In this document: positions 2,081 through 7,642 of the stretch, piece by piece
Numbering within the stretch: position 1 is the first letter of the stretch
How the letters are laid out: the number at the start of each line of letters is the position of its first letter
Source: Candidatus Bipolaricaulota bacterium
GTDB taxonomy: Bacteria > Bipolaricaulota > Bipolaricaulia > UBA7950 > UBA9294
Length of the DNA stretch: 7,642 nucleotides
Assembly (NCBI GenBank): GCA_018399865.1
Contig: JAGYNL010000055.1
Coordinates: 1 to 7,642, forward strand
Direction: 5' to 3'
Notes under the pieces: model-generated
Databases searched by the model: none
Seen by the model: only the letters and a program-made list of their open reading frames with translations
What the model was told of the DNA's origin: nothing
Program-made: the position numbers and the translations under genes

Positions 2081-2560
2081 TTAATTCTTTATAGCTATTA
2101 CACGAAAGTGAAAGGCTCCACTAGGAGCGTCAACCTTGATCTTCTGTCCCTCGTGTTTGCCGATAAGAGCCTGCCCTACCGGGGAGTCGACAGAGATCTT
2201 CCCGTTTTCTAGATCTACCTCGGCCGAGCTAACAAGGCTGAAGGTTCCACTCTCCTTGTCTTCCATATCCCGGAGGATAAACTTGCTGCCCACACCAATG
2301 GTATCTTTGGAGATCTGGTCGGCAGGAATAATCTCTGCCGAATCGAGAGTATTTGTTAGACGATGCACTTCACGCTCGTAGTATTGTTGCTCGCTCTGGA
2401 GGTAGATATACTCTTTGTTCTCTCGCAAATCTCCGCCGTTCATCTTGGATGCTTTTAGCTTTTCAGGAATCTCTTCGTAGAGAATCTTCTTTGCTTTCTC
2501 TAGCTCCTCCTGCATCAAGCCATGTCCTTCCTCAGTCAGGAAGATTCTTTCTTTTTCCAT
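2081..2560 (-). CDS. greA: Transcription elongation factor GreA
   Basis: GreA inserts its coiled coil into the secondary channel of RNA polymerase and stimulates cleavage of backtracked transcripts. The 159-residue length is typical. Residues about 8-75 form the antiparallel coiled coil, whose tip GGDLRENKEY carries the acidic pair D44 and E47, expected to help position the catalytic metal. Residues about 80-159 form the FKBP-like domain, ending in SPVGQALIGKHEGQKIKV and the usual hydrophobic last strand. The tip is slightly unusual: Arg replaces the common Ser in the GDLSEN consensus, and YIYLQ replaces the usual small residues after it. The essential acids are kept. The start is well supported by AGAGGTGA upstream, which lies within the preceding ORF, overlapped by 29 nt. 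lysS follows after 2 nt. Confidence 0.96.
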   Translation of the reverse strand: MEKERIFLTEEGHGLMQEELEKAKKILYEEIPEKLKASKMNGGDLRENKEYIYLQSEQQYYEREVHRLTNTLDSAEIIPADQISKDTIGVGSKFILRDMEDKESGTFSLVSSAEVDLENGKISVDSPVGQALIGKHEGQKIKVDAPSGAFHFRVIAIKN

Positions 2561-2993
2561 TTTTCACCTCTGTACCTATTCCTTGCGCATACTCGTCGAG
2601 CATTTTCTTCTCGAACTTGCCTGTGGACAGATCCTTACACAACGCAGTTGGCTGGACTACAAGATCCACACCGGAGAAGAAAGCCTTATTATGGCGGAAT
2701 ACCTCTCTGATGATCCGCTTTGCCCTGTTTCGCTGCACAGCATTTCCGTATCTATGGGAAACAGCAATGCCTATCCGCGCTTCCTGGGAAGTATCAAGCA
2801 CCCGAAACTGAAAGTACTTACCTCTCCACATCCTTCCTTGGCGAAAAACCCTCTCAAAATCGGTCTGTTTCCTGAGGCGCATGCACGCGGGAAACCGGCA
2901 ATCCTTGCCGTTACGCATGACAAAACTATAGCCAACAGCAGCGCTTATTGCAAGAATACTTGCTTGTTTGGAAACAATCAGTAGCTCAGCCAT
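2532..2993 (-). CDS. rnpA: Ribonuclease P protein component-like (RnpA)
   Basis: This is recognisable as the small basic protein that binds the RNase P RNA and helps mature the 5' ends of tRNAs. Visible hallmarks are RLRKQTDFERVFRQG at about 39-53, with the two cleft aromatics F46 and F50, the strand RIGIAVSHRYGNAV at 73-86, and the family RNR helix RNRAKRIIREVF (R88, N89, R90, K92, R93, R96). The strand after the RNR helix is DLVVQPTAL, where RnpA proteins usually have a basic residue after the hydrophobic run, so the copy is somewhat diverged. The longest ORF (153 residues) begins 10 nt after the gcvPB stop with GGTGATC as a possible ribosome site. Its first 25-37 residues are hydrophobic and not RnpA-like. 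Starts at Met26 (2918) or Met38 (2882) would give a more normal length of about 115-128 residues, but neither has a good Shine-Dalgarno. The location is unusual because rnpA normally adjoins rpmH. This could be the sole relocated copy or a paralogue. Confidence 0.85.
   Translation of the reverse strand: MAELLIVSKQASILAISAAVGYSFVMRNGKDCRFPACMRLRKQTDFERVFRQGRMWRGKYFQFRVLDTSQEARIGIAVSHRYGNAVQRNRAKRIIREVFRHNKAFFSGVDLVVQPTALCKDLSTGKFEKKMLDEYAQGIGTEVKNGKRKNLPD
2564..2571 (-). promoter_or_regulatory. Shine-Dalgarno of greA inside the rnpA-like ORF
   Basis: On the minus strand AGAGGTGA precedes the greA ATG (2560-2558), with the GAGG core about 6 nt away. It is a strong ribosome site that lies entirely within the coding end of the upstream RNase P protein-like ORF. 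It fixes the greA start and shows that the 29-nt overlap between the two genes is a real translational overlap. Confidence 0.8.
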
Positions 2994-3003
2994 TACCCAA
3001 AGA

Positions 3004-4572
3004 TCACCGTGTCGCCTTCTGGAAGTAGCCTTGGTACTTCTTCTTATATCCTCTCCAGGTCATAGCCCACTTGCTTGCATCGTCTAAGTAAGAATGATCG
3101 GACACTTTACCCACAACGCTGTTGTAAGGGGAGTTTATCACTAGCTGGGGGTCTTGATAAGCTTCCTTGGCTATTTCTTCTAGCATCGAGGCGTATTTAT
3201 CTAGTTCCTCTTTGGAATACGACTCAGTGGGCTCCAGCGTAACTGGTTGTGGGACAACCCATGGCTCGTGACTCATCCAGTAATGCCCCCCATAATCTGC
3301 TACCCGCCGCTGGATGTCGGTAGTTTTAACCCCTGTTTCTTTCCACAGCTCTTCCCAACTGTAACGCACTTGCTCCAAACGGTGCTTTCCAGGAGCAAAG
3401 GAAGCTTCCACCCCCTTTATCTTCCGCATTTTGCTAAGCAGGTAGTTGTTATTAAGAACTGCGACGCGAGCTACTTCGCGCACACCCTCTGCTCCCAAGC
3501 TCATTATCCAGGCGTAGGCCCGCACAACAGCAGGGATAACGCCGTAGTAATCCTTGATTTTCCCGATAGAGTGTTTTAGCTCATAGTTTAGGAAGTAATT
3601 TCCGGTATCTTTATCTTGGTCCACCAATGGCACCGGCAAGAATGGAGCAAGCTCGTTTGTTACCCCGATTGCTCCGCTTCCAGGCCCGCCACATCCATGG
3701 GGAGAAGCAAACGTCTTGTGAAGGTTAAAGAAAGACATGTCAAAACCCGCCTCAGCAGCGCGGGTGATACCAAGTATTCCATTGGCGTTTGCCTGATCAT
3801 AGCCGCACAATCCCCCCATAGAATGTACTAAATTGGTAAACTTCTTGATATGCGGATTGAAAATCCCTGTGTCCTCAGGATTGGTAATAAAGAGGGCCGC
3901 GGTGCGTTTTGATACGACTTTTTCAAGCGATGATAACCGCACGAAGCCGTCTTTGTCAGCGGGGACGATTATCACCTTGTAGCCCTTTACCCGTGGAGCA
4001 GCAGCATCTGATGGGTGAGAGAAGAGGGTTGTGACTATCTCATCTCGGTCTTCCCTCTTTTCCTCAAAATATGCCTGAACCATGGCGGCCATGGTGTATA
4101 TGGCATGAGATCCTCCTCCGGGTTGAAAGGAGAAGCGATCAAGCCCTGAGATTTCGCGCATGAAAGACTCAAGCCGATATGATATCTCCAGTACTCCTTG
4201 TACAGTCTTTTGGCTTTGCTGCGGGTGTAGATCAGCAAGCTTTGGAGTAGAGACAAATGCTTCGTTTACTGGTGGATTGTATTTCATTGTGCATGTACCC
4301 TGTCCTACATCGATATTGAGGTCTCTGCCTAGCGTTTCTTGAGCCAGATGCAAATAGTGTTGTAGCACGCGCGACTGTCCCATCTCTGGTAGTTTAGGCA
4401 TCCCTCTTCGGCGCATCGATTCGGGGATTGATGAGGTAAATTCACAGGTTTCATTGGCGATTTCTTGTTCGGTCCTAGGTGGAAGAATTCCCCTTTCTCC
4501 TGGAGAGGTAAGCTCGTATATTATCGGTTCGTTCCAGCGCGCTTGATGGAACCCTGTCTGTTTTCGGTTCAT
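3004..4572 (-). CDS. gcvPB: GcvPB-like PLP subunit (divergent glycine dehydrogenase subunit 2)
   Basis: In the two-subunit glycine decarboxylase (P-protein) this subunit carries the PLP cofactor. Fold-defining segments are kept: GQGTCTMKYNPPVNE (90-104), the DLHPQQ-TVQG segment (114-126), an aspartate at D259 (GYDQAN), the PLP lysine K286 in NLHKTFASPHG, the glycine-rich HGCGGPGSGAIGV (292-304), and LEPTES (446-451). Other signatures are changed. The usual AHGTNPASA is SHPSDAAAP (185-193), the usual QPAAGAHGE is QPGGGSHAI (150-158), the HEFVLS strand is replaced by HRLEQVRYS (397-405), and the PTIYFPLIV strand reads MSHEPWVVP (433-441). The C-terminus is extended past the typical end (522 residues against roughly 480-500). 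The ATG overlaps the gcvPA stop by 4 nt with GGAGG upstream, so the subunits are translationally coupled. Family membership is certain; activity on glycine is doubtful. Confidence 0.9.
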   Translation of the reverse strand: MNRKQTGFHQARWNEPIIYELTSPGERGILPPRTEQEIANETCEFTSSIPESMRRRGMPKLPEMGQSRVLQHYLHLAQETLGRDLNIDVGQGTCTMKYNPPVNEAFVSTPKLADLHPQQSQKTVQGVLEISYRLESFMREISGLDRFSFQPGGGSHAIYTMAAMVQAYFEEKREDRDEIVTTLFSHPSDAAAPRVKGYKVIIVPADKDGFVRLSSLEKVVSKRTAALFITNPEDTGIFNPHIKKFTNLVHSMGGLCGYDQANANGILGITRAAEAGFDMSFFNLHKTFASPHGCGGPGSGAIGVTNELAPFLPVPLVDQDKDTGNYFLNYELKHSIGKIKDYYGVIPAVVRAYAWIMSLGAEGVREVARVAVLNNNYLLSKMRKIKGVEASFAPGKHRLEQVRYSWEELWKETGVKTTDIQRRVADYGGHYWMSHEPWVVPQPVTLEPTESYSKEELDKYASMLEEIAKEAYQDPQLVINSPYNSVVGKVSDHSYLDDASKWAMTWRGYKKKYQGYFQKATR

Positions 4573-5966
4573 GTTGCCTCCATTACTTCCCGCACACTTT
4601 TCACTAACCTATCAATATCATCCTTGGTATGAACCTCGGTTACTGAGATCAGTAGGCTCTCTCCCAGTTCAGGGAAGTCCTTTGATAGATCGATCCCGCC
4701 ATAAATTCCCCTCTCAAAAAGGGCATCATTTATTTCATGTGCAGTTTTACCTGAGCTATCCAGGTTCAGAACAAACTCTTGAAAGAATGGGGCGGACAGA
4801 GCAGGAGCCTTAACTTCTCCCATTTGTGAAAGTTCTTTTGCCGCATAAGAGGAACGCCGCATTATAGTATTGCCTAAATCATGCATTCCCTGTGGTCCCA
4901 TCAGAGCCAAATATACGCCAGCCGTGATTCCCCACAGCGCAGCCATTGTTCCCACGTATTCTTTGGACTTTTCACGTTTAGCAAATGACGTTCGCTCCCA
5001 AGCAACATCTCCGAAGCCCCATCTACCATCGGTTGTTGGGGCAATACCGAACAGCCGTGTGGGAAATTGTGATACTATCCTTTCTTCATCTGGGGAAGCG
5101 ATGAATCCTCCGCGTCCTCCACCGTAGTACATGTGAATGCCAAGTGACTGCAATTCTCCGCAAACGATATCTGCTCCGTATTGTGGCGGCGGAGCGAGTA
5201 CCCCAAGAGAAATGGGATCAACCCCAACCACCAACAATGCTCCATGTTCGTGTGTTAAACTGGCGATCTTCTCTGAGTCTGTCTCTATGCTTCCAAGGAA
5301 AGACGGGTTCTCAACGTAAACCGCAGCTACACGGTTGGACAGTTTATCTTCTAGCTCGGGAACATCAGTCAAGCCAGAATCTTTGTCGTAGTTAACCGTT
5401 AAGACTTCAATCTGTGGGTAGCAGTAGTTGCGTATTATTGATGCCCGTTCGGGATTCAGGGAGCGGGGAATAATAATTACTTTCCGATCAGTGATGCGGC
5501 AGGCCATGCGCAGCGAGGAAGCCGCTGCCTGTGAACCATCGTAGGTAGGAACGCTTACCACGTCCATATCTACAAGTTCCCCCAGCATACTTGCGTATTC
5601 GAATAGGGCTTGGAAGCGACCGTGATCCTCGTAAGGCTCGCCCGCATAGGCGGTCAGAAACTCTGAGCGGCTGTTTATAACATCGCAGATAGCTGGGACA
5701 TAGTGTGCCGAGCATCCCCCACCCAGAAAGGACAATCTCTCGCTAGTTGGCACATTTTTTGCTAGAAGCTGGTTCATGTGCCGACGCAGGGAGTACTCGT
5801 CTTGATATCCTTCGGGAATGGCAAGCTCTCTTTTAAACAGGAGTTCATCTGGAATTAACTCATACAACTCCTCTATGCTGTTTGCCCCAATCTGGGAAAG
5901 CATCTCTTTTTGAACCCGTGCAACGGAGTTTGGAATGTATGGGTGTACTAACTTCTCTTTTTTCAT
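4569..5966 (-). CDS. gcvPA: GcvPA-like subunit (divergent glycine dehydrogenase subunit 1)
   Basis: This is the partner subunit of the split P-protein. It has a PLP-transferase fold but no PLP lysine, and in known P-proteins it contributes residues to the shared active site. It is 465 residues long, close to the family norm. Recognisable family segments are HPYIPNSVARVQKEML with IGANSIEELY (8-35), LRRHMNQLLAKN (60-71), SFLGGGCSAHYVPA (79-92), VDPISLGVLAPPPQYGADIVCGE (249-271), LALMGPQGM (353-361), APFFQEFVLNL (392-402) and the SVTEVHTKDDIDRL end. Two hallmark blocks are lost. The usual YTPYQPEISQG is YAGEPYEDHG (107-116), and the usual REKATSNICTNQ is REKSKEYVGTMA (331-342). Start choice is firm: AAAGGAGG sits 4 nt before the ATG, 10 nt after the SDR stop. 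It overlaps gcvPB by ATGA. No gcvT or gcvH is nearby. Confidence 0.9.
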   Translation of the reverse strand: MKKEKLVHPYIPNSVARVQKEMLSQIGANSIEELYELIPDELLFKRELAIPEGYQDEYSLRRHMNQLLAKNVPTSERLSFLGGGCSAHYVPAICDVINSRSEFLTAYAGEPYEDHGRFQALFEYASMLGELVDMDVVSVPTYDGSQAAASSLRMACRITDRKVIIIPRSLNPERASIIRNYCYPQIEVLTVNYDKDSGLTDVPELEDKLSNRVAAVYVENPSFLGSIETDSEKIASLTHEHGALLVVGVDPISLGVLAPPPQYGADIVCGELQSLGIHMYYGGGRGGFIASPDEERIVSQFPTRLFGIAPTTDGRWGFGDVAWERTSFAKREKSKEYVGTMAALWGITAGVYLALMGPQGMHDLGNTIMRRSSYAAKELSQMGEVKAPALSAPFFQEFVLNLDSSGKTAHEINDALFERGIYGGIDLSKDFPELGESLLISVTEVHTKDDIDRLVKSVREVMEAT

Positions 5967-5976
5967 TTATCCTCCT

Positions 5977-6735
5977 TTATGCCAGCCCACCGCCATCGAC
6001 GACGATCACCGCTCCGGTCACCCAGGCCGAGAGATCACTTGCCAGAAAGTAAACCGCCTTAGCGATGTCAAGTGGCGATCCAACACGAGCAAGCGGCCGA
6101 TTTGCTGCTTCGGACATGAATTTGTCTTCGTCTTCTCCCAACTGCGCTGCCTCACTTCGTAGTAGTGGAGTGTCGACGTCTCCCGGACATACGCAGTTCA
6201 CTCTTATATTCTGCGGCCCGTGGTCAATTGCCATGGCTCGTGTTAGGTTTACTACCCCGCCTTTAGCTGCGCAGTAGGCAGAAGCCCTAGGTCCACCTTT
6301 GAGGCCCCAGCCAGAGCCAATGTTAATTATTGTTCCCCCCTGTTCTTTCATAAAGCCTATAGCGTACTTGGACATTAGATAGGTGCCTTTGAGCGATACA
6401 TCAATGACTAGATCCCATTCGCTTTCCGTAAGATCAACCACGCTCTTACGACGGATCACACCAGCGCCGTTCACCAGGACATCAATGCGCCCAAACCGAC
6501 TAACTACCTTTTGGATCGCTGTTTGACAATCCGCATTGCAGGACACATCGCCTCGCACAAATAGTGCTTCCGTTCCCATTTGCTCTATAGCAGATTCGCC
6601 GGCCGCTTCGTTGACATCGATTATAGCTACCCGAGCCCCAGCCTCTTTCAGGTAGCGCGCGCAGCCAAGCCCGATCCCGGAAGCCCCTCCAGTTACAATT
6701 GCCACCTTTCCTGCGAGATTATCATTTTCTGGCAT
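5977..6735 (-). CDS. SDR-family NAD(P)-dependent oxidoreductase
   Basis: This is a classical short-chain dehydrogenase/reductase of 252 residues. The Rossmann nucleotide motif TGGASGIG is at 15-22. Asp40 at the end of the second strand suggests NAD(H) rather than NADP(H). NGAG is at 89-92, the catalytic Ser is S141, and the Tyr/Lys pair is Y154 and K158 (YCAAK). PGDVDTP follows at 184-190 and the VTGAVIVVDGGG end is typical of the FabG / glucose 1-dehydrogenase-like group. The fourth tetrad position, usually Asn in a V-N-L context, reads Ser114 (DVSLKG). It is the first gene of the operon, with AAGGAG about 9 nt before its ATG and a strong promoter just upstream. Co-transcription with the GcvP-like pair suggests that it acts on the precursor or product of that reaction. 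The substrate cannot be read from the sequence, and a generic FabG-like name would mislead. Confidence 0.95.
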   Translation of the reverse strand: MPENDNLAGKVAIVTGGASGIGLGCARYLKEAGARVAIIDVNEAAGESAIEQMGTEALFVRGDVSCNADCQTAIQKVVSRFGRIDVLVNGAGVIRRKSVVDLTESEWDLVIDVSLKGTYLMSKYAIGFMKEQGGTIINIGSGWGLKGGPRASAYCAAKGGVVNLTRAMAIDHGPQNIRVNCVCPGDVDTPLLRSEAAQLGEDEDKFMSEAANRPLARVGSPLDIAKAVYFLASDLSAWVTGAVIVVDGGGLA

Positions 6736-7224: not shown

Positions 7225-7235
7225 AAGGAAGTGAT
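7225..7235 (+). promoter_or_regulatory. Near-perfect extended Shine-Dalgarno of the GNAT gene
   Basis: AAGGAAGTGAT matches 10 of 11 bases of the full 16S anti-Shine-Dalgarno complement AAGGAGGTGAT. The only canonical in-frame start nearby, GTG at 7231, lies inside it and is too close to be read by it. The codon at ideal distance (8 nt after the GGAAG core) is ATA at 7240. Confidence 0.6.
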
Positions 7236-7642
7236 ACCCATAGAATCGATACTTACAAGTACAAGAAACGAAGTTATTAGGCAGGAAACAGAGCTACCAG
7301 AGTGGCTAACGCGGGATAAACTGGCGCGTTTCCTGCACCAGGTGATGAAGCCTTACGAGGATAAGCTTGAGGACATCAAGAGCGCTCTGTCAGTTGTGTT
7401 TGAAGATGAACGTACCCCTGGCGGGTTCGTCATTCTGGCAACTGATGAGGATGAGCTGATCGGCGCAGCCGTGATCCACCACACGCCATGGAGCGGGTAT
7501 GTTCCAGAGAATATGCTTCTGTTTATCGGGGTGAGGCCCGAGTACCGCGGTCAAGGCGTGGGACGCGCGCTTATAGCAGATACTCTCGCTAATTGCGAAG
7601 GGGATGTGAAGCTACACGTGGAATATGACAACCCCGCTAAGC
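7231..7642 (+). CDS. GNAT-family N-acetyltransferase (3' truncated by window edge)
   Basis: An open frame follows an in-frame TGA at 7192 and runs off the right edge, giving 137 codons here. It carries the acetyl-CoA-binding motif A of GNAT enzymes, IGVRPEYRGQGVGRALI (about 99-115), with the R/Q-x-x-G-x-G loop at R106, G109 and G111. The preceding strands are FVILATDEDELIGAAVI, and the beginning of motif B is LHVEYDNPAK (128-137). The N-terminal 60 residues (WLTRDKLARFL, MKPYEDKLEDIKSAL) form helices ahead of the core. GNAT enzymes transfer an acetyl group from acetyl-CoA to amines of small molecules, peptides or proteins; the substrate here is unknown. The start is uncertain: GTG at 7231 is the only canonical choice, but the Shine-Dalgarno is positioned for ATA at 7240 (ATA GAA TCG). 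It is transcribed divergently from the gcv-like operon. Confidence 0.88.
   Translation, partial: MIPIESILTSTRNEVIRQETELPEWLTRDKLARFLHQVMKPYEDKLEDIKSALSVVFEDERTPGGFVILATDEDELIGAAVIHHTPWSGYVPENMLLFIGVRPEYRGQGVGRALIADTLANCEGDVKLHVEYDNPAK

Follow-up and report, generated by a model that had tools for sequence, protein, structure and literature searches.

The GcvPB-like and GcvPA-like proteins encoded in a 7,642-nucleotide stretch of DNA from a Candidatus Bipolaricaulota bacterium (hereafter the window) are best explained, with a probability of roughly 0.6, as a P-protein-related pyridoxal phosphate (PLP) heterodimer that works without a lipoyl H-protein in a small catabolic module for an amine or amino-acid-like substrate. 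Because the sequences, the neighbouring genes and the genome content agree, it is very unlikely that the pair is the P-protein of lipoyl-based glycine cleavage, in other words an H-protein-dependent glycine decarboxylase; it likely acts in a pathway linked to a short-chain dehydrogenase/reductase (SDR). The gene neighbourhood, together with the lack of H-protein and lipoylation genes, is a stronger argument here than the motifs.

The GcvPB-like subunit (PB) is encoded on the minus strand (3004..4572), from an ATG at 4572 to a stop at 3004-3006, and is a PLP protein of 522 aa with its PLP lysine at K286; the open reading frame (ORF) and translation, the NF003346 match, the tree and the column comparison identify it as a member of a divergent clade. 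The stop of the gene for its GcvPA-like partner (PA, 465 aa; 4569..5966, minus strand; NF001696, Pfam and PA tree) overlaps the PB start, the two sharing 4 bases. A classical SDR of 252 aa is encoded 10 bases upstream of the PA gene (5977..6735, minus strand; ORF, NCBIfam and Pfam scans). Downstream of PB and on the same strand follow rnpA-like, greA-like, lysS and PAP2-phosphatase genes. The usual setting of rnpA is beside rpmH; the rnpA ORF of the window (2532-2993, minus strand; 71 bits with TIGR00188 for a cut-off of 38) lies next to PB, with greA-lysS on its other side; it begins ~10 bases beyond the PB gene and overlaps the start of the greA-like ORF by 29 bases at its 3' end, and the order PB, rnpA, greA-lysS recurs at locus L001. 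On the plus strand, the translation of 7231-7641 reads as the beginning of a probable GNAT acetyltransferase that runs off the end of the window.

The automatic GcvPB/GcvPA label is explained by the NCBIfam equivalog cut-offs, which both subunits exceed (PB, 536 bits with NF003346 for a cut-off of 441; PA, 493 bits with NF001696 for a cut-off of 364); Pfam finds GcvP2_C on PB and GDC-P on PA. The GcvPB rule is permissive, its cut-off of 441 lying far under canonical scores: across 32 genomes, the GcvPB model scored near-full-length divergent copies at 508-580 bits, against 672-814 for canonical and archaeal-intermediate ones (one contig-cut canonical copy, in G003, scored 571). Raising the NF003346 cut-off to between ~580 and 670 bits, for full-length proteins, would split canonical from divergent. 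A sequence-only reading of the window had called 'glycine dehydrogenase subunit 2' a probable over-annotation, which is supported by the permissive cut-off and the lack of clustering with proven glycine decarboxylases. Many other proteins may bear a wrong function in the same way, since the best 120 of 7802 matches to PB all have the divergent SH.P segment (HGTNP is found in 0 of these 120, YFPLIV in 0 and HEF in 1); where a source has given them a name, it is GcvPB or glycine dehydrogenase subunit 2. Separately, an identity as 2-amino-3-ketobutyrate CoA ligase (KBL)/alpha-oxoamine synthase, as in a threonine/KBL system, is not supported by family models, no KBL model appearing among the 8 NCBIfam matches of PB or the 6 of PA; PA has a weak NCBIfam match to serine palmitoyltransferase (E 9.5e-05, 21 bits for a cut-off of 500).

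By fold, the pair belongs with the P-proteins (PLP fold type I, paired subunits) as a putative heterodimer. Foldseek ranked P-proteins at positions 1-19 for a model of PB alone, followed by sphingosine-1-phosphate lyase and cysteine desulfurases; rank 1, 9a73_B (34% identical), is an integrative model of GCSPA-GCSPB and stands outside the tree set. The confidence of the PB model was only moderate (mean pLDDT 68.2, pTM 0.71; residues 434-436 below 50), so that no pocket geometry was drawn from it.

A search of 5.8 billion proteins returned 7802 matches to the PB query among 8000 scored candidates. Within the best 120 of these 7802, the closest relative is 91% identical, a group at ~80% includes one protein labelled Candidatus Acetothermia, and a tier at ~60% holds proteins labelled Asgard archaea, Korarchaeum, Aminicenantes, a Clostridium and others. 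Loci L001-L004, from metagenome-assembled genomes (MAGs) with Bipolaricaulota/Acetothermia among them, encode proteins 79-82% identical to PB. In a tree of 79 PB sequences (L004, L029, L034 and L060 (partial), L035, which gave no long match, and repeat loci were left out), the 59 divergent proteins, near-duplicates such as P0011 and L003 included, formed one clade (support 0.951, stem of 0.69 substitutions per site). Outside it stood 17 canonical and 3 archaeal-intermediate sequences, including 1wyt_B of Thermus, human GLDC, and L052, L054 and L055, the Bipolaricaulota-type canonical copies from three close relatives of the window. The PA tree had the same form, with 47 divergent proteins in one clade (support 0.998) and 18 sequences outside. 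When placed in trees with the Thermus P-protein, as the sequence-only reading had proposed, and with human GLDC, the window protein fell outside the proven glycine decarboxylases (0.951 for PB, 0.998 for PA), and its proposal of a subfamily with altered function gains from the separate clades of both subunits; we infer an altered substrate or acceptor. PA is as remodelled as PB, a point that reading had missed. An open-access literature search gave no title or abstract pointing to the divergent clade.

All the motifs quoted from the window are present in the minus-strand translation: in PB, QPGGGSHAI starts at 150, SHPSDAAAP at 185, NLHKTF at 283 (giving K286), HGCGGPG at 292, HRLEQVRYS at 397, MSHEPWVVP at 433, LEPTES at 446 and, in the C-terminal tail, SKWAMTWRGYKKKYQGYF at 500. 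The motif changes are real; they are substitutions at aligned positions, and no segment is missing. For the HEFVLS strand, quoted as HRLEQVRYS, the register needs correcting, the His of HEF aligning with Glu400 and not with His397. Ten columns are near-fixed differently in the 17 canonical and 59 divergent PBs (S>T93, A>G153, P>T182, G>P187, T>D234, Y>W355, A>N375, H>E400, Y>H435 and M>T445), so that the changes are not due to chance, and they mark the whole clade and not one protein. Another 59 columns, including K286, H285, H186 and D259, are conserved alike in both groups. Arg is found at R403 in 59/59 divergent PBs and 0/20 others, and at R398 in 59/59 divergent, 0/17 canonical and 2/3 archaeal-intermediate proteins. 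Two further features singled out at the start proved less distinctive: the Cys of HGCGGPG is frequent in divergent PBs (44/59) but not fixed, and the tail is indeed longer but extends a Trp that 7/17 canonical proteins also have. The archaeal intermediates L053, L057 and L058 carry the canonical residue in each of the ten swapped columns, yet score nearer to the query than canonical proteins do.

We compared both subunits with the human GLDC 'active site' residues Y161, Y164, G618, T894 and W897, as tabulated from a homology model in PMC7259800, and with the H-protein interface residues (human ~366-376) of the docking model in the same source. Human numbers were carried onto PB and PA through PDB alignments, from K754. 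The window pair keeps Y161 (kept in 39/47 divergent PAs) and G618 (G154 in PB, kept in 59/59), has a gap at Y164 and has other residues at T894 and W897. The Y164 column is a gap in 47/47 divergent PAs and Tyr in 15/15 canonical and 3/3 archaeal-intermediate ones, the loop aligned with Y161-Y164 being one residue shorter in all 47, window PA included; another Tyr follows close after the gap (Y112 in the window PA, Tyr in 38/47) and could, judging from the alignment, stand in for Y164. W897 corresponds to E436 of PB, a column with Glu, His or Asp in 59/59 divergent and Phe or Trp in 17/17 canonical proteins, and T894 to M433, where Thr is still found in 21/59 divergent proteins, so that there is no consistent change across the clade. 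In the modelled H-protein contact segment, the Q366, I372 and R373 columns are altered in most of the 47 divergent PAs: Q366 is replaced by Trp, Tyr or Phe (41/47), I372 by Ala or Gly (40/47), and the R373 column holds non-Arg residues among its five commonest types (33/47). Q370 has become Ser and H371 Phe or Tyr (45/47 each), and C382, near the modelled interface, is Gly in 47/47; R374 is kept in 47/47 and K376 in 17/47. The changes are located where published models put the active site and the H-protein contact.

The genes around the pair also set the two groups apart. We scored linkage within 3 kb at 53 divergent loci and at 18 canonical or archaeal-intermediate loci from genomes that also have a divergent copy (flanks of at least 2.5 kb on both sides at 32/53 and 13/18, respectively). 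GcvH was found near 0/53 divergent and 15/18 comparison loci, and GcvT near 0/53 and 11/18. Conversely, an SDR was found near 41/53 and 0/18, and an AcoX-like kinase near 35/53 and 1/18 (the archaeal-intermediate L124), with queries that came from divergent loci and are therefore biased to find both genes there; close relatives are among the loci, and the counts, which are not independent, are inflated by this kinship. The 12 divergent loci without an SDR match comprise four with cut flanks (L016, L020, L021, L109) and eight with full flanks (L024, L026, L032, L036, L038, L041, L042, L108), and at L041 and L042 an annotated SDR is in range but under the score limit. Searched against the PDB, the SDR gave general relatives only, too broad to name a substrate.

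Regulators, permeases (APC and NhaC-type), acyl-CoA synthetases and deacylases recur near the pair and vary by lineage, with amino-acid permeases and NhaC-type antiporters among the lineage-specific neighbours and sugar importers with beta-galactosidase at some Bacillus/Paenibacillus-type loci. At four such loci (L106, L107, L013, L028), SDR-PA-PB is part of, or adjoins, a cluster for sugar import and glycoside hydrolases (beta-galactosidase and an MGH1-like hydrolase by Pfam at L106; hydrolase/importer context by similarity at the other three), a setting at odds with a plain amino-acid substrate.

The SDR is encoded directly upstream of PA in many loci, suggesting that it acts first. In the module of SDR, PA-like and PB-like subunits, often with an AcoX-type 'ATP-NAD kinase', the SDR would oxidise a hydroxyl next to an amine-bearing carbon, PA/PB would bind the product, an amino-carbonyl compound, as an imine with PLP, and a C-C bond would be broken at the amine-bearing carbon, with CO2 released or an acyl group passed on to water or CoA, to give an amine or an amino acid. 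This particular chemistry (SDR oxidation, PLP imine, C-C cleavage) follows pathway logic and is put forward tentatively. Decarboxylation is the ancestral P-protein chemistry, and the pair might instead be a lipoate-free decarboxylase that turns some non-glycine amino acid into an amine, with the SDR in a later or separate step. That ancestry, a primary-amine oxidase gene near the pair in Gemmobacter and the amino-acid or APC permeases of several loci speak for such an enzyme; we nevertheless hold it to be rather unlikely, in view of the SDR position directly upstream of PA and of the change to E400, R403, H435 and E/H436, which may mean that a polar group is held.

The kinase carries the Pfam pair PF01513 and PF20143, and its best PDB match had an E of 0.82. 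It is not found near the window, nor in G001-G004 in a search that covered 13 of the 32 genomes; it is missing within 3 kb of L013, L028 and L104-L107 and present near L032. Being frequent but not universal, the AcoX-type kinase is probably an accessory partner. Its presence at 35/53 loci, the weak diacylglycerol-kinase-domain matches in 4/5 family members scanned and the rank of sphingosine-1-phosphate lyase as the next fold after P-proteins would fit a PLP enzyme that acts, in the manner of that lyase, on an amino alcohol that the linked kinase has phosphorylated. We judge this highly improbable, since the kinase was not found in G001-G004 or near the six loci named, the resemblance to the lyase is general to PLP fold type I, and the SDR would be left unexplained.

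Some kinase loci are of interest in themselves. At L124 (G006:C61, about 6595-11046), from a Heimdallarchaeota genome, an archaeal-intermediate PA/PB adjoins both gcvH and an AcoX-like kinase, an arrangement that possibly links the canonical and divergent systems. In Peptoclostridium acidaminophilum (L085, 8998-13805), the gene for an AcoX-like kinase overlaps that for a class I/II aminotransferase, and an SDR is encoded ~2 kb beyond; this is a second kind of PLP enzyme paired with the AcoX-like kinase family. Of five plasmid contexts around kinase matches, three had no gcvPB annotated nearby and two carried no annotation in that region; in Natronosalvus, the PA/PB pair lies elsewhere on the plasmid bearing the kinase match.

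Genome content points the same way as linkage. We surveyed 32 genomes from 35 loci (L014, L034 and L035 were left out), covering ORFs of at least 90 aa in the carrier survey. A canonical or archaeal-intermediate copy was found in 18/32, and GcvH exceeded 100 bits in 18/18 of these; of the 14 genomes without such a copy, 2 had GcvH (G010, G029; Fisher p=4e-7 for GcvH and canonical copy, kinship ignored). G018 had two marginal partial GcvH matches (~22.7 bits for a cut-off of 22.2), which we attribute to different domains of lipoyl- or biotinyl-like type; a single match in G021 fell below the cut-off. GcvT was found in 17/32 genomes, namely in 16/18 with a canonical or archaeal-intermediate copy (not G002 and G003) and in 1/14 without (G029); the G032 match did not reach the cut-off, and the matches of G001 and G004, which sit in far longer reading frames, may represent other proteins with a GcvT domain. 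The sequence-only reading had conceded that it would be refuted by a genome in which there is no other gcvP and the pair goes functionally with gcvT/gcvH; this does not hold for the close relatives G001-G004 (PB 79-82% identical), each of which has a separate canonical gcvPB and gcvH.

For LipA and lipoate ligase, we searched 13 of the 14 genomes that lack a canonical copy (all but G029) and three controls, which yielded the ligase in 3/3 and LipA in 2/3. Seven genomes (G005, G009, G012, G014, G016, G028, G030) have the pair, and no GcvH, GcvT, LipA over the cut-off or LplA/LipB was found in them; G021 gives the same picture but for sub-cut-off matches. By record title, the seven comprise six Synergistota and one Copromonas, so that they represent few independent events. 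Most of the genomes are MAGs of unstated completeness, yet incompleteness would hardly explain why all these genes are missing together from seven assemblies. On the complete chromosome of Paenibacillus baekrokdamisoli (G027), the pair is present without GcvH, GcvT or canonical PB; LipA and lipoate ligase are both encoded. The pair occurs in 5/299 genomes from the order of G031 and in 9/35 from that of G001 (E up to 1e-120), the pattern of an accessory pathway.

These data bear on whether the pair is a genuine but divergent glycine decarboxylase in which an unlinked or unusual carrier replaces the standard H-protein. Such an enzyme would account for the equivalog scores, for P-proteins as nearest solved folds, for the 59 columns, PLP lysine included, common to both groups, and for G029 and G010, where GcvH accompanies only the divergent PB (with GcvT in G029; without GcvT in G010). 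We consider it improbable, because GcvH, GcvT and the lipoylation genes were jointly undetected in seven genomes (with ORFs of at least 90 aa surveyed for a carrier), GcvH and GcvT were linked to 0/53 loci, and the modelled H-contact segment is rewritten. Altogether, these results favour the P-protein-related heterodimer that is independent of a lipoyl H-protein.

Looking further, the clade could represent a glycine decarboxylase relative that is widespread, needs no lipoate and cleaves SDR-made amino-carbonyl compounds; P-protein chemistry would then have been freed from its dependence on H-protein and put to new use as a general step of amine or amino-acid catabolism in many bacterial and archaeal phyla. 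This broader picture is tentative. If it holds, the AcoX-type kinase, which is not known to have a settled function, gains a second setting in which its function may be found. The operon offers a testable setting for both this kinase and a new PLP reaction. The matter also has a practical side, since gcvPA/gcvPB genes in uncultured lineages are read as a sign of glycine cleavage or of the reductive glycine pathway. One such reading, for Atribacterota, names gcvT and gcvPAB among the genes (PMC11227167, whose sequences may belong to either clade).

The closest known system is the split P-protein of Thermus thermophilus (GcvPA/GcvPB; PDB 1WYT/1WYU/1WYV), which shares the fold, the two-subunit gene pair, NLHKTF and the EPTE segment with the window pair, and is the best PDB sequence match to PB (274.7 bits; ranks 2-3 by fold). 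Unlike it, the window pair stands in a separate clade, with ten near-fixed swaps in PB, a PA loop shortened at Y164, a modelled H-contact segment that is rewritten and no gcvH/gcvT linkage. AcoX has been termed a predicted NAD kinase (PMC9676059). The linked kinase of Sphingomonas shares ~60-71% identity with proteins of Pseudomonas, Actinoplanes and Luteimonas labelled 'ATP-NAD kinase family'. These relatives are probably AcoX proper; unlike the AcoX of acetoin operons, the linked kinase stands beside PLP subunits, and it is absent near the window. For the order of reactions, the analogy lies with threonine dehydrogenase and KBL, which acts on the amino-keto acid after the dehydrogenase: KBL is of a PLP family other than that of the PA/PB pair, but by pathway logic a dehydrogenase would likewise come first and a PLP enzyme second.
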